Assembly: GCA_023301405.1 (NCBI GenBank)
Contig: JALZUX010000702.1
Coordinates: 1 to 12,653, forward strand
From: Granulosicoccaceae bacterium
GTDB lineage: Bacteria > Pseudomonadota > Gammaproteobacteria > Granulosicoccales > Granulosicoccaceae
Direction: 5' to 3'
Length of the DNA: 12,653 nt
A program made the translations under genes and the position numbers. Positions 3,295 to 10,335 of this stretch are shown here, piece by piece. Below the pieces are notes generated by a model. That model saw only the letters and a program-made list of their open reading frames with translations, ran no database searches and had not been told where the DNA came from. Numbering within the stretch: position 1 is the first letter of the stretch; each line of letters begins with the position of its first letter.

Positions 3295-3912
3295 TTGATT
3301 AAGCAATTATTTTTCGGCCTCCTATTATTAATAACCTCAGGAACAGCGTTGGCTATCGAAGAACCCTCTTACAAAGTGTTAGAAAAATCAGGAGACTTAG
3401 AACTGCGAGCCTATGAATCGAAAATTGTTGCAGAAGTGTTTGTATCAGGAGAAATGAACAAAGCATCAAGTGCGGGTTTCAGGCTCATAGCAGACTACAT
3501 TTTCGGCAACAATACCTCTACCACAGGGATCAGCGAAAAAATCAGCATGACCGCCCCTGTAACGATGGAACCACAATCAGAAAAAATAAGCATGACCGCA
3601 CCGGTCACTCTTGAGAAAACAGCAGGACGCTGGCGGGTGCACTTCGTGATGCCATCGAGCTACACAATGGCCTCCTTACCCAAACCAAATAATACTGACG
3701 TCACACTACGTGAAGTTGCACCGGCAAATTATGCGGTCATTACCTTCAGCGGATTGGCCAGTCAAAAAAAGGTCACCGCGCAGACAGATATCCTAATGGA
3801 TTGGCTAGACAGCAAAGGCATCAAGACCCTGAATACTCCGGAACTTGCTCGATACAATCCGCCTTGGACCCTGCCGTTCTTACGTCGCAATGAGATTATG
3901 GTTGTCTATTAA
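3295..3912 (+). CDS. SOUL-family haem-binding protein, exported
   Basis: This 205-aa protein starts at TTG 3295, with AGG about ten bases upstream. An export signal (MIKQLFFGLLLLITSGTALA) is followed by a cleavage-type ALA|IEEP junction, so the mature protein is probably periplasmic. The rest matches the SOUL/HBP family across its length: PSYKVLEKSGDLELRAYES at the N-terminus, the doubled EKISMTAPVT motif (residues 81-90 and 96-105), the VHFVMPSSYTMASLPKP segment, and a C-terminal ARYNPPWTLPFLRRNEI. Doubling of the KIxMTAPV motif is common in bacterial members. SOUL proteins bind haem or tetrapyrrole in animals; the role of bacterial members is poorly defined. It stands alone and converges on the DCC-family gene, leaving 16 bases between the stops. 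Confidence 0.9.
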   Translation: MIKQLFFGLLLLITSGTALAIEEPSYKVLEKSGDLELRAYESKIVAEVFVSGEMNKASSAGFRLIADYIFGNNTSTTGISEKISMTAPVTMEPQSEKISMTAPVTLEKTAGRWRVHFVMPSSYTMASLPKPNNTDVTLREVAPANYAVITFSGLASQKKVTAQTDILMDWLDSKGIKTLNTPELARYNPPWTLPFLRRNEIMVVY

Positions 3913-5280: not shown

Positions 5281-7326
5281 TTGAAAGTAATCAGTTATAA
5301 AAATTTTACTGGATCGATTAATCAAGATCTTAAAAGATTATCGACTATTTCATCCGTGGCCTATTTTGTGGCAACGCTGGTGTTGTGTGGCACCATCATG
5401 TTCAGTTATTACACGCTACGCAATATCCTGATTGAACAATCCTACCTGAACGACTTTGGAACATCGACCAGCGAGTTACGCCTCACCATAAGGGAGTCAT
5501 CACTGTATTTGTCAGACTTAAAACAAGCGAAAAAACAACCCAAATCTGAGTCAAGGTTAGAGCAAAAAATAACACAACAAATAAACACAGCGCTGCTGAA
5601 AATTGAAAACTTGAAGGAAAAAACATCGTTTCACTTAAGTCAGCTTCAACGGTTTGACTATTTCGATCGGTTCAACACGATGTTTAATAATCGTCCAGAC
5701 AACATCTGGATGAAGTTGGATCAATACGTAGCCCGCCTGAAAGAAGTTTCAGCAGAGAAAAACTACGGCATGCCGGGGGCAGAATTACTGTGGCTGCCTG
5801 TGGAAGCGACCGCTGCAAAAAACGGCGCTCTCGGACTTAGCTACGAAACCGCATTAAATGAGCTACAAGTCATCACTAAAGACCGGGCAAATCATCTGGA
5901 AACAACGCTAAAACATCTTTCAATGTTTTCAATTCTAATTGTACTTCTTGAAATACTACTTATTTTCTATCCACTCAAGCAGCATCTAGGAAGAGTAAAT
6001 ACGAACCTTAAGACAGCTCACGAAAAACTCTACTTACAAGCAAATTATGACCAGCAAACTAATTTACCAAACACCTCAGGAATATCAAAGCAATTAAGCT
6101 CTCCCTCGATGGAAGCACAGTATGACTCTTTAATGATCGTATCAATCCTGAACATAGAGACTATAAGTAGAATTGTTGGACCTACACATTTTGATGAATT
6201 TTTTAAGCAATTTTCAAAAAAATTAGCCTATGCATTACCAGCGGACTCAATGATTTTCAGGGCCGGAGACAATGAATTTGGCGTTGTGCAGAAGTCGGTA
6301 ACATACACTAATAAGCCACTTGATGTATTTTCACTGCAGCGCACACTGGCAGGAAAAATTCAAGTACACAATACAATCGTCTACCCCGAGTACAAGCTTG
6401 GCAGCGCAGACGGTGCGATCAAGACAGACAATCTACTGATAAAAATTATAGATGCCCGCCTATCTGCTCAACACTACAATCAAGCCGAGCCAATCCTACC
6501 GAAATACCAATCATCAATGCGTCTCAGTATTGACGATGAAAACCTACAAATTGAAAAAATACGCATAGCAATACAGAACAAAGAATTCGTACCGTATTAT
6601 CAAATAAAAGTAGATGCAAAAACCGGAAAGGCCTGCGGAATGGAAGCATTATGTCGATGGATAGATTCAGCAGGCCACATGACTCATCCCGGGGGGTTTA
6701 TTCCACTTGCGGAGAAAAGCGGGCTGATCTCTGAGATCACATGGCAACTACTCGACACCATAGCGGCGGATTACAAGCAATGGCGTGAACACGGACTAAA
6801 CCCTGGGCGCATAGCTTTTAATGCCGCTGAAATGATGCTACGCGAAGCTGACTTTGTAGACCGCATTAAAGCAGTAATTATAAAAACAGGCACCAGTCAA
6901 TGCCCTCTGGATCTTGAGATCACAGAAAACGTGGCGTTAGAATTCGACAGCGAAAGTATTGCTACCGCCCTTGCGGCGGTCCGCGAGCTAGGTATGAAGC
7001 TTGCGCTCGATGATTTTGGAACCGGATATGCCTCCTTAAGTTCTATCGTAAACCTTGATATCGACACAATAAAAGTAGATAGAAGTTTTGTGCAATTGAT
7101 ATCCACTAGCGGGGATGCAAGGAATATCGTCGCGTCAATTATCAAATTATGCCAACAGCTTGAAAAAAAATCCGTAGTCGAAGGCGTAGAGACCGAAGAA
7201 GAATGGGCATTTTGTCGTGATCATGGTTGCGACGAAATACAAGGATTTTTATTTCATAAGCCCGCTCCTTATGAACACGTGCTTTGCGTGCTATCCGATG
7301 AGCAACAGCTCAGCAAGGCCAGCTAG
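5281..7326 (+). CDS. Membrane GGDEF/EAL protein, probable c-di-GMP phosphodiesterase with periplasmic sensor region
   Basis: At 681 aa it likely degrades cyclic di-GMP at the inner membrane. One transmembrane helix (~24-46) and a second (~212-232) enclose a ~165-residue, mostly helical periplasmic region. A ~20-residue linker then leads directly into the signalling domains with no HAMP. The GGDEF domain (~250-405) keeps DQQTNLPN but its active loop reads AGDNEF (328-333), so cyclase activity is unlikely. The EAL domain (~420-668) keeps the residues expected for catalysis: EAL (455-457, in MEALCRW), Asn514, Glu546 in LEITE, DDFGTGYASL (577-586), Lys598 in IKVDRSF, EGVET (634-638) and QGF (654-656). 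TTG 5281 is the first usable start in the frame; TAAGG lies upstream with a long spacer. The stop overlaps the next start by one base (TAGTG), indicating coupling to a sugar-binding protein gene. Confidence 0.92.
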   Translation: MKVISYKNFTGSINQDLKRLSTISSVAYFVATLVLCGTIMFSYYTLRNILIEQSYLNDFGTSTSELRLTIRESSLYLSDLKQAKKQPKSESRLEQKITQQINTALLKIENLKEKTSFHLSQLQRFDYFDRFNTMFNNRPDNIWMKLDQYVARLKEVSAEKNYGMPGAELLWLPVEATAAKNGALGLSYETALNELQVITKDRANHLETTLKHLSMFSILIVLLEILLIFYPLKQHLGRVNTNLKTAHEKLYLQANYDQQTNLPNTSGISKQLSSPSMEAQYDSLMIVSILNIETISRIVGPTHFDEFFKQFSKKLAYALPADSMIFRAGDNEFGVVQKSVTYTNKPLDVFSLQRTLAGKIQVHNTIVYPEYKLGSADGAIKTDNLLIKIIDARLSAQHYNQAEPILPKYQSSMRLSIDDENLQIEKIRIAIQNKEFVPYYQIKVDAKTGKACGMEALCRWIDSAGHMTHPGGFIPLAEKSGLISEITWQLLDTIAADYKQWREHGLNPGRIAFNAAEMMLREADFVDRIKAVIIKTGTSQCPLDLEITENVALEFDSESIATALAAVRELGMKLALDDFGTGYASLSSIVNLDIDTIKVDRSFVQLISTSGDARNIVASIIKLCQQLEKKSVVEGVETEEEWAFCRDHGCDEIQGFLFHKPAPYEHVLCVLSDEQQLSKAS

Positions 7327-8633
7327 TGAAAATTTCAACAGTAGAAAACACTGTATTTCTTATGCAAGCTATTACCCGAACAGCGTTATTCGTAATTTTG
7401 CTATTTTCGCCAATCGTGAGCAACGCAGAACCTGAAGTCGAGGTTATGCACTGGTGGAACCGGGGCGGTGATTTACGAGCAATGCAAGTAATACGTGACG
7501 AATTCGAACATCGTGGCGGCATCTGGTTTGACGTCGCGGGTGATGACTCGATAGACGTCCTCAATACTGCTGTATCAAGAATGATTAAAGGCTATGCACC
7601 AACTCTTGTGCAGTGGAACTCCGCATGGGAGGTAACAGAAATCCGAAACCTGGGGTTACTAAATACGCTCAACATGGAAACATCAAACTATTTGCATAAC
7701 GCCTTCATAGACAACGTACTGGATATGATTATGGTCAACGGAGAAATTGTTGCTATTCCGGTTAACGTTCATAGCGAAAACTGGCTGTGGTACAAGCCCG
7801 ACAACCTACCCGACAATGGACCCCGGGTAATGGCTGACTGGAAGGCTTTCTTAGAATTCGCAGAATCTCTTGCTGAAACAGGAAAAATTGCTCTAGCCGT
7901 CGGGGACACACCGCGACAGCAAAGAGCGTTGTTTAACAATGTGCTTTTAGGAGTGGCAGGGCAAGACCTTTTTCAACGAATTTACTACGACCTAGACGTC
8001 GGGGCATTAAGCACCAAAGGGTTTTCACAAGCGTTGGCCACCTATGCGAAGCTACGTGAATACTCGCATTCATTTGGTGAAGGCCGGTGGGACCAGCAAC
8101 TGGCTGCAGTGGCAGCCAACAAAGCCTTCACCGTCAACATGGGTGACTGGGCAAAAGGCGAATTTCGCAACCTTGGTTTAAAGCTAGGTAGGGACTACGA
8201 CTGCGCCCCTGCGCCTGGCACCGGGGATCACATTGTTTTGGTTATCGATGCATTTGTATTGGGGCAAGTTTCAGAAAAAAACGAAAAGCAAGGACAGCAG
8301 TTATTCATGGATGTAGTCACAAATCCAGTGGTCAGCGAGACCTTCAACTACCTGAAGGGCTCATTGTCTCCACTGCGAGAAATTGATACCGAAGGACTTG
8401 ATAAATGCAGCCAGGTGGCACACACCATCTTGAAGACGCGAGGCAAAGCCATTAAGCCCCATGCGAGCATTGGCGACAGAGGCTTTTTGGCGGACATCGA
8501 TCATCTGATATCAGAGCTCTGGACAGGCTGCATGGTGTCTACAGAGTGGACAACTGACTTCTCAACACTATTAAAACGGGAAAAAATGAAACGTATAAGT
8601 AAATCAAACTTCTCACAACACGTAGTTGAGTAA
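7326..8633 (+). CDS. Periplasmic sugar-type solute-binding protein (family 1, glucose/mannose-like)
   Basis: This 435-aa protein starts at GTG 7326, overlapping the upstream stop by one base, with AAGG seven bases before it. A second possible start, ATG 7362, would leave a tidier 22-residue signal peptide. Both end in VSNA|EPEVEV. The mature N-terminus (VEVMHWWNRGGDLRAMQVI), then GIWFDVAG and the P-T-L-V-Q-W-N segment, follow the pattern of family 1 binding proteins of the glucose/mannose group (COG1653 type). There is no lipobox. No permease or ATPase gene adjoins it; its partners are the EAL protein and another binding protein. This suggests a ligand-sensing role. The alternative is service to a transporter encoded elsewhere. 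The specific sugar cannot be read from the sequence. Confidence 0.85.
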   Translation: MKISTVENTVFLMQAITRTALFVILLFSPIVSNAEPEVEVMHWWNRGGDLRAMQVIRDEFEHRGGIWFDVAGDDSIDVLNTAVSRMIKGYAPTLVQWNSAWEVTEIRNLGLLNTLNMETSNYLHNAFIDNVLDMIMVNGEIVAIPVNVHSENWLWYKPDNLPDNGPRVMADWKAFLEFAESLAETGKIALAVGDTPRQQRALFNNVLLGVAGQDLFQRIYYDLDVGALSTKGFSQALATYAKLREYSHSFGEGRWDQQLAAVAANKAFTVNMGDWAKGEFRNLGLKLGRDYDCAPAPGTGDHIVLVIDAFVLGQVSEKNEKQGQQLFMDVVTNPVVSETFNYLKGSLSPLREIDTEGLDKCSQVAHTILKTRGKAIKPHASIGDRGFLADIDHLISELWTGCMVSTEWTTDFSTLLKREKMKRISKSNFSQHVVE

Positions 8634-8661
8634 GCCAATGATATGCTATTTAGTATTCATA

Positions 8662-8669
8662 GAGGGGAG
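8662..8669 (+). promoter_or_regulatory. Strong ribosome-binding site for the second binding protein
   Basis: GAGGGGAG ends five bases before GTG 8675. It is the best Shine-Dalgarno in the operon and fixes a GTG start that would otherwise be doubtful. Confidence 0.8.
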
Positions 8670-8674
8670 TCGTT

Positions 8675-10273
8675 GTGAAAATACGCACTAACCAATATGC
8701 CAGCTTGCTCGTTGCGCTCTCTCTGGCGTGTTGGGGTTCCAATATTATCGCCAGCGAGCCCGGAGAATCGCCGGTCATTTCGACCAAAATATCAAAGCAG
8801 CCATTAACTCTTGATATTCACTTCCACTATCATTATAGCCAAAATACAGTTTATGATAGCGAATGGCCTGTAGAGAAAAAGGCCACTGAGCTCACTGGAA
8901 TTTCTCTTAACAATGTGACCGCCAAAGATAATGCAAGCGGCAATGAGGCATTCAATCTTTTACTGGCAACCGACACACTGCCCGATATAGTCGGCGGCAC
9001 AAGATTAAGAGAAAAGTTTAATCAGTACGGGCCTTTAGGACATTTTTTGCCACTCAACGATTTAATTCAACAGCACGCCCCGAACTTAGATTTGTTTTTT
9101 AAGAAAAACCCCAGTTTATTGAAAGCGATTTCTGCGGCAGATGGGCAGTTGTATCATATTCCGTATTTACCAGACGGAAAGTTCGGTAGAGCTTACTTTA
9201 TACGCACTGACTGGCTTGAAAAACTCGGACTAGACACCCCTAACAACGTGGCCGAACTGCACAATATATTGGTTCGTTTTAAAACAGAGGATCCCAATGG
9301 CAATGGTCAGCCCGATGAAGTTCCATTTTTTGCTCGAGATCCAGAAGAACTAATTCGACTGGTGACACTTTGGGACGCCAGAACAACGGGTACCGACACA
9401 TGGCATGACTTCTATATAGCGGATGGCAAGGTTCGGCATGGGTACGTAGAAACAAATTATAGAAACGGCATGAGGCATTTAGCACAGTGGTATTCTGAAG
9501 GGCTTATCGATAACAACATGTTCACACAAACCGGTAACATCAGAGACCAGCTATTGGCAAGCAATAAAGGCGGCATGACGCATGACTGGTTCGCATCTAC
9601 CGCCAGCTACAACCAACGGCTCAAAGATCAAATTCCGCGGTTCAACTTTAAACCATTCGCACCTCCCGAAAGCGTATCAGGCAAAAGAATAGAAGAACAT
9701 CGACGAACAGCCATTAAGCCGGATGGTTGGGCCATCACCAAGACCAATGAACACGTTATCGAGACAATCAAGTATTTTGATTTTTGGTTTACACCACAAG
9801 GAAGACGTCTTGCTAACTTCGGAGTTGAAGGTCAAGAATACACCTTAGTTAACGGTGCTCCAATTTTTTCAGACGACGTATTACACGGCGACCTGCCAGT
9901 TAATGAAAGGCTATGGTCGGTAGGCGCTCAAATCCCCAGAGGGTTTCAACAAGACTACGCGTACGAAAAGCAATGGACCAATCAAATAGCTCTTGAGGGG
10001 ATTGCACTATATGAAAAAGGAAATTACCTGGTTGAACCATTTCACGGAGTAACTCTTAACACCGAAGAGAAAAAAGCATTCGACTTCTATTGGAAAGATA
10101 TTCTGACTTTTATGCTAGAGCGTCAAGAAGAGTGGATACTGGGTTCTCGCGATGTCAACGATGATTGGGACGCCTACCTCGCAAGAATAGACAAACTTGG
10201 GTTAAAAAAAGTAATCAGTGTTATGCAGTCAGCCTACAATCGTCAGTATGTTACCTCGGCGCCCACCGACTAG
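8675..10273 (+). CDS. Periplasmic oligosaccharide-type solute-binding protein (LplA/AlgQ-like)
   Basis: This 532-aa protein starts at GTG 8675. An N-terminal export signal ends near IIAS|EPG; Cys19 lies in the hydrophobic core but lacks a canonical lipobox. It has the long architecture of the LplA/LipO/AlgQ binding proteins: FNLLLATDTLPDIVGG, then FIRTDWLEKLGLDTPNNVAE, and the acidic loop DPNGNGQPDEVPF (206-218), which in AlgQ1/AlgQ2 of Sphingomonas forms an EF-hand-like calcium site. The C-terminal half keeps GWAITKTNEHV and YFDFWFTPQGRRLANFGVEG. Family ligands include alginate and other oligosaccharides; the ligand here is unknown. It lies 41 bases after the first binding protein and is the last gene before a terminator. 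It clearly differs from its neighbour, so it is not a recent duplicate. Confidence 0.87.
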   Translation: MKIRTNQYASLLVALSLACWGSNIIASEPGESPVISTKISKQPLTLDIHFHYHYSQNTVYDSEWPVEKKATELTGISLNNVTAKDNASGNEAFNLLLATDTLPDIVGGTRLREKFNQYGPLGHFLPLNDLIQQHAPNLDLFFKKNPSLLKAISAADGQLYHIPYLPDGKFGRAYFIRTDWLEKLGLDTPNNVAELHNILVRFKTEDPNGNGQPDEVPFFARDPEELIRLVTLWDARTTGTDTWHDFYIADGKVRHGYVETNYRNGMRHLAQWYSEGLIDNNMFTQTGNIRDQLLASNKGGMTHDWFASTASYNQRLKDQIPRFNFKPFAPPESVSGKRIEEHRRTAIKPDGWAITKTNEHVIETIKYFDFWFTPQGRRLANFGVEGQEYTLVNGAPIFSDDVLHGDLPVNERLWSVGAQIPRGFQQDYAYEKQWTNQIALEGIALYEKGNYLVEPFHGVTLNTEEKKAFDFYWKDILTFMLERQEEWILGSRDVNDDWDAYLARIDKLGLKKVISVMQSAYNRQYVTSAPTD

Positions 10274-10305: not shown

Positions 10306-10335
10306 AAAAATCACCAGGGAATTACCCGGTGTTTT
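10306..10335. terminator. Bidirectional rho-independent terminator
   Basis: The stem is CACC (10312-10315) with GGTG (10328-10331) and GGG (10317-10319) with CCC (10325-10327), with one bulged A and a 5-base loop. TTTT follows on the plus strand and AAAAA precedes it, giving a U-tract in both directions. It lies 38 bases past the second binding-protein gene and 17 bases past the MarR gene on the other strand, so it can serve both. Confidence 0.75.

Follow-up and report, generated by a model that had tools for sequence, protein, structure and literature searches.

A three-gene operon of a Granulosicoccaceae bacterium as a candidate relay from periplasmic sugar-binding proteins to cyclic diguanylate

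We analysed a stretch of 12,653 nucleotides (the window), which is contig C702 of a Granulosicoccaceae genome (G000; 704 contigs, 4.03 Mb, 86% complete), and in it an operon of three genes. The operon encodes a putative membrane phosphodiesterase of cyclic diguanylate (c-di-GMP) with GGDEF and EAL domains, here called the EAL protein, followed by a periplasmic binding protein, SBP1, and a relative of the alginate-binding protein AlgQ. The reading that we favour, with modest confidence, is that this trio is a permease-less relay from periplasmic sugar to c-di-GMP, of the same kind as NspS-MbaA of Vibrio cholerae, with SBP1 and AlgQ as its inputs. It is built on the gene order, the conservation without permeases, the catalytic and ligand residues and the clades that we observed, and on a four-helix fold that is predicted. 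The genes and their parts are:

5281..7326, + strand: putative membrane GGDEF (degenerate)-EAL c-di-GMP phosphodiesterase, 681 residues, TTG start (open reading frame and Pfam)
5416..5910, + strand: periplasmic four-helix-bundle domain, residues ~46-210, between two membrane helices (predicted model)
5779..5838, + strand: tip with PVEAxxAxxG motif, residues 167-186, candidate SBP1 docking site (conservation; presumed position)
6265..6279, + strand: degenerate GGDEF motif, GDNEF (alignment of the family)
6553..7263, + strand: EAL domain (Pfam)
7326..8633, + strand: SBP1, GtsA/glucose-type periplasmic binding protein, 435 residues, GTG start (PDB relatives, clade, gene order)
8675..10273, + strand: AlgQ-type alginate-oligosaccharide binding protein, 532 residues, GTG start (phmmer to AlgQ1 and AlgQ2)
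9290..9319, + strand: AlgQ calcium-loop sequence DPNGNGxxDE (its D, N, N, D and E residues are conserved in 4/4 trio proteins)

The start of the SBP1 reading frame overlaps the TAG stop of the EAL frame by one base. A gap of 41 bases separates SBP1 from the AlgQ-type frame, which is preceded by a gaggggag box. An initial annotation of this DNA had claimed this order, overlap and gap, and the open reading frame coordinates (5281-10273) bear them out. It had also claimed the absence of a permease or ATPase gene, and with eight sugar-permease/ATPase queries tblastn found no ATP-binding cassette (ABC) permease or ATPase in the 12.65-kb window. On the result of this search we reject the reading that the binding proteins belong to an ABC importer encoded at the locus.

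The linkage between the EAL protein and SBP1 was followed in a sample of 48 genomes of the window's family. The N-terminal profile of the EAL protein gave 13 matches in 11 of these genomes, most likely 12 genes, as the EAL gene of G067 is split over two contig ends. An SBP1 gene comes next in 11 of the 12, the remaining one (G008) running off its contig. Thus, SBP1 lies directly 3' of the EAL gene at all 11 loci where the next gene is visible, in 10 genomes; the two genes overlap at the closest and are some 55 bases apart at the widest. Neither the window nor the ten other pair or trio loci have a permease within the stretches examined; ATPase-like matches at L152 lie several kilobases off, in a gene cluster of their own.

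Seen from the other side, relatives of SBP1 of some kind are present in 37 of the 48 genomes, while identity of at least 37% over at least 100 residues is restricted to 11 loci in 10 genomes (100, 70, 62, 57, 44, 43, 42, 39, 38, 38 and 37%; the SBP1 gene of G019, split over two contigs, is counted once). Every one of these loci sits directly behind an EAL relative. A 51-residue piece of an SBP1 in G024:C97 (42%) falls outside the 11 loci inspected. The layout that the initial annotation had set against a relay, with binding proteins beside permeases and apart from the EAL gene, was therefore not seen for SBP1, nor for the trio AlgQ clade described below, which is permease-less in view.

SBP1 itself matches SBP_bac_8 in Pfam (E 5e-10), and its solved relatives are of the GtsA type (8hqq, 1.5e-50; 5dvf, 5.6e-46; 5xpj, about 5e-46). 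It has 43 core positions in common with importer-type relatives, including HWW, NxH, GDWA and KGS. In contrast to them, it belongs to a clade of its own, whose genes follow an EAL gene and have no permease in view. Ten SBP1 proteins (alignment A2, which omits the split G019 gene) group into this single clade with support of 100/100 when compared with 22 importer-type rows, of which two are identical, and the clade has 31 signature positions of its own. A piece of a permease was found at 20/20 importer-type loci examined, with flanks of ~1.5 kb on each side (weakest at L129, E 8e-8). The structure model of SBP1 reached a predicted local distance difference test score of 69.5 and was not used further.

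Next, we looked outside the family. A class sample of 369 genomes gave three weak profile matches besides G000 (G072, G303 and G074), none with an SBP1- or AlgQ-like neighbour by blastp (3/3; two of the contigs are only 3-4 kb). In a phylum sample of 398 genomes the N-terminal profile matched 12, G000 included, and six of the other eleven were inspected (G731, G460, G464, G574 and G676 lay outside the inspection). A GGDEF-EAL gene followed by one or more binding-protein genes was found in G784, from another family of the class, and in G454, from outside the class. For the other four (G527, G480, G540, G769), blastp revealed nothing like SBP1 or AlgQ among the neighbouring genes, a search that binding proteins of other families would escape.

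The family of G784 has the N-terminal domain in 6 of 275 genomes. Together with G454 these make up a second lineage, where a GtsA-type binding protein is encoded directly 3' of the GGDEF-EAL gene in 7/7 loci and the eight sugar-permease/ATPase queries gave no tblastn match over 15-19.5 kb per locus. At one end of the G454 stretch, more than 6 kb 5' of the GGDEF-EAL gene, a reading frame (L259:1-821) has by eye the look of a branched-chain-type permease. The GGDEF motif is canonical in all 7 proteins of this lineage. In G908 (L255:5239-8677) the EAL frame is broken near 6660-6710 and the binding-protein gene is a single tblastn stretch, 7313-8677.

Signature residues of SBP1 recur in the second lineage. 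Among 32 realigned signature positions, Y90, W97 and E151 are common to SBP1 and 8/8 lineage-2 binding proteins, a count that omits the G908 protein, and L283 is present in 7/8; the shared residues are carried by at most 10% of importer-type rows. In a 39-row tree the 18 signalling proteins make up one side of a branch (96/91), to be read with a long-branch warning.

Because the EAL-SBP1 order holds at 11/11 visible loci and again at 7/7 in the second lineage, chance neighbourhood is ruled out. The same linkage, together with the separation of the SBP1 clade from importer-type proteins, makes it very improbable that both binding proteins serve ABC importers elsewhere and that the EAL gene is an unrelated operon neighbour. 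That explanation draws on SBP1 and AlgQ both coming from importer families, and on the existence of orphan binding proteins whose permeases are encoded far away. Gene context, with linkage in two lineages, gives good support to SBP1 reporting to the EAL protein.

The EAL protein has an EAL domain (Pfam E 1.5e-61) with ten catalytic positions, whose numbering we take to be that of RocR, invariant in 10/10 aligned proteins of the family. The GGDEF domain is degenerate (Pfam E 5e-8) and its motif non-canonical in 10/10; alignments A1 and A3 omit G067, where the EAL gene is truncated. There are two hydrophobic stretches, at about residues 20-46 and 208-237, on either side of residues ~46-210, in accordance with the claimed periplasmic region of ~165 residues. 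This region is predicted to fold as a chemoreceptor-type four-helix bundle, and the Pfam four-helix-bundle sensor models gave no match to the protein at E <= 1. Within residues 46-210 the most conserved 20-residue stretch in ten proteins is 170-189. Judging from the order of helices in the model, the tip of the bundle would be membrane-distal, and it is our candidate place for SBP1 docking.

The nearest folds to this domain are direct-binding chemoreceptor domains, and also LytS as solved with XylFII (5xsj). The former suggest that the bundle might bind a small molecule itself, as Tar and PcaY do, with the binding proteins only buffering or presenting the ligand and not docking. We consider this improbable, as the gene is so strictly linked to binding-protein genes and conservation peaks at the tip and not across the bundle. 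The LytS domain shares the fold, and in 5xsj XylFII is presumably the binding protein and the output of LytS a histidine kinase, not a c-di-GMP enzyme. Tar reads the maltose-binding protein, and Trg reads the ribose- and galactose-binding proteins. These are likewise four-helix-bundle receptors read by binding proteins, two different ones in the case of Trg, but their output is chemotaxis and their binding proteins also serve importers.

The closest mechanistic parallel is NspS-MbaA. According to the published account, in Vibrio cholerae the polyamine-binding NspS contacts MbaA through the latter's periplasmic domain; MbaA without NspS is a constitutive phosphodiesterase; and norspermidine acting through NspS raises c-di-GMP, with import unnecessary for detection (PMC8079147). 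In both systems a binding protein is encoded adjacent to a membrane GGDEF-EAL protein with a periplasmic domain, for detection and not import, and both enzymes have a non-canonical motif, SGDEF in MbaA as described there and GDNEF here. In the window the adjacent gene comes without a permease, and the periplasmic domain is joined to a GGDEF-EAL part that has the EAL catalytic residues.

There are also differences. NspS is a polyamine receptor whose gene precedes mbaA, whereas here two proteins of sugar and alginate families are encoded downstream. Among the matches listed for four Vibrio genomes, the alignments reach no further than the GGDEF-EAL part and its leading edge, and no kinship of the periplasmic domains was seen in them; the likeness that we claim is one of mechanism. 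The NspS-MbaA analogy drawn in the initial annotation is sound for the mechanism, with a different ligand class and gene order. In our best reading, the parts that differ from NspS-MbaA are the ligands (sugar and probably alginate), the four-helix-bundle receptor and the presence of two receptor proteins. We regard the trio as a candidate binding-protein-controlled c-di-GMP enzyme, with receptors of sugar and alginate families, two in number.

The third protein had been described as LplA/AlgQ-type. It is AlgQ-type and, more precisely, a close relative of AlgQ itself, with phmmer values of 1.7e-171 to AlgQ1 (3vlu) and 1.1e-166 to AlgQ2 (1j1n) and no Pfam match at E <= 1. Its nearest named relatives come from Granulosicoccaceae metagenome-assembled genomes. 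Residues Y129, W270, Y395, E396 and W399, presumably the ligand-site numbers of AlgQ2, are kept in 4/4 trio proteins in the alignment, as are the calcium residues. The likeness to AlgQ1 and AlgQ2 of the AlgM1M2SS importer is close, and the difference lies in the surroundings, as AlgM1, AlgM2 and AlgS genes accompany AlgQ at 0/4 trio loci within the stretches examined.

AlgQ is the third gene at four of the 11 EAL-SBP1 loci (G000, G006, G033 and G019), in three genera; the G019 trio spans two contigs that share exactly 96 bases at their ends. When one genome per species was scanned (84,980 species), 197 encoding stretches came up, the best 80 of which were analysed. AlgM1/AlgM2 are in view at 74 of these best 80, and the six loci without them are three trio loci plus L060, L073 and L097. 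The last three, from Rhodobacterales records, have AlgQ-type genes with no AlgM1, AlgM2 or AlgS in view and fall outside the trio clade. We also noted a tandem pair of AlgQ-type genes in Oceaniovalibus sp. ACAM 378 (L103:8001-11122).

For the tree, 100 hits were reduced to 82 rows by omitting those with fewer than ~440 residues covered, frames outside 470-720 residues and duplicates. The trio proteins form a single clade of four on a long stem (Shimodaira-Hasegawa-like approximate likelihood ratio test 100; midpoint root only). They are 61-72% identical among themselves and 52-55% identical to importer-type proteins.

A part for AlgQ in the signalling is less secure than one for SBP1. One explanation is that SBP1 alone signals to the EAL protein, and AlgQ is merely co-expressed, as a second binding protein for an alginate importer encoded elsewhere; Sphingomonas A1 has two alginate binding proteins, AlgQ1 and AlgQ2. 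Several observations favour it and weigh against AlgQ as an input. AlgQ is absent as third gene at 7/11 loci. A canonical alginate importer is present elsewhere in G006, G033 and G019. Moreover, of 219 positions conserved in importers, 176 are retained by every one of the four trio AlgQs, and these positions are not eroded beyond importer-type groups of like divergence. The positions lost in all four number 9/219, compared with 32/231 in a Devosia/Rhizobium group, 23/223 in a Granulosicoccus pair, 8/224 in the G013/G007 pair, 6/228 in Vibrio/Alginatibacterium and 0 in the L060/L073/L097 group. Taken alone, the AlgQ sequence thus speaks neither for nor against a loss of the transport surface.

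On the other side, the window's own genome has a single AlgQ-type gene and no AlgM1 orthologue (best match 1.3e-14 in the 86% complete genome), whereas 33 of the 48 genomes match below 1e-90. Its AlgQ therefore appears to lack an importer, subject to that completeness. An empty importer site in G000 was sought via a flanking gene from G006, but the encoded protein has a great number of matches in each of the two genomes, and no G000 orthologue stood out among them. Alginate_lyase2 (PF08787) is found in one protein of G000 (8.3e-44) and one of G033, with no match in G006 or G019; it is present in 6 of 11 genomes searched. The trio AlgQ clade is also separate, long-stemmed under its midpoint root and tied to the EAL gene in three genera, and the second lineage too has two binding proteins per GGDEF-EAL gene. 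On balance, a merely co-expressed AlgQ seems unlikely, yet worth serious consideration. Regarding the earlier claim of two receptors on one phosphodiesterase, gene context upholds the SBP1 part, and docking of AlgQ finds no support in erosion of importer positions; that AlgQ also reports to the EAL protein is a plausible hypothesis.

The second binding protein of the other lineage is of a different kind. G784 (L241/L258) and G927 (L253) have two tandem GtsA-type binding proteins, whose copies a and b are 71-75% identical, cross-genome comparisons of G784 and G927 included. With the AlgQ trio, this means that there are two versions of the two-receptor arrangement, one with a recruited AlgQ and one with a tandem pair. 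It hints at a Pseudomonadota family of four-helix-bundle c-di-GMP enzymes, each reading two dedicated permease-less binding proteins and reached in two ways, by recruitment of AlgQ in Granulosicoccaceae and by a tandem GtsA-type pair in another family; this broader proposal is a tentative one, in which we have less than even confidence.

Returning to the relay, control of the phosphodiesterase by SBP1 and AlgQ is proposed by analogy with NspS-MbaA. SBP1 would bind a small sugar in the periplasm, our best guess being a glucose-like one, and dock on the membrane-distal tip of the four-helix bundle. Docking would alter the cytoplasmic phosphodiesterase activity and, through it, the c-di-GMP level and whether cells attach or disperse. 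An AlgQ that binds alginate oligosaccharides would have joined the operon in one branch of the family. Its most likely role is to give the same receptor a second input, which would let the cell read free sugar jointly with the products of alginate breakdown. Within this scheme we infer the docking, the sign of its effect, the ligands and the share of AlgQ.

To our knowledge, it is not known for most membrane c-di-GMP enzymes which signals they respond to. Here, a dedicated pair of binding proteins points to probable ligands, namely a sugar together with alginate oligosaccharides, as a directly testable input to a phosphodiesterase. Through the trio, seaweed sugars probably inform the choice of a marine bacterium to stay or leave. 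If true, the breakdown of seaweed polysaccharide would be linked to the choice between attached and dispersing life, and one c-di-GMP output would integrate two carbohydrate signals in a periplasmic polysaccharide-to-biofilm relay. It also raises the question of how a single receptor domain can respond to binding proteins from two separate families.

As for the surroundings, the trio is preceded by a SOUL gene and a DCC1-type gene; on its other side are a MarR gene, which is convergent with the trio, and a gene for an amidohydrolase (Pfam). A terminator had been claimed after the third gene; a hairpin is present, but it is weak:

10312..10331, no strand assigned: weak hairpin, possible terminator, between the convergent AlgQ and MarR genes (fold z -1.46)

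It has 7 pairs, and in the terminator scan it was a call for the minus strand alone. No Rfam family was found in the window at gathering thresholds. The SOUL heme-binding gene lies 5' of the EAL gene in the same orientation both in the window (3295-3912) and in G035 (L152:10434-11237); at the other pair loci it had no blastp match within the stretches examined. On the minus strand, 1100-2833 encodes a 577-residue protein with an acidic N-terminal part rich in Ser, Thr and Glu and no Pfam match at E <= 1. Lastly, near the contig end, 12339-12629 holds a 118-base direct repeat, 92% identical, with starts 173 bases apart.

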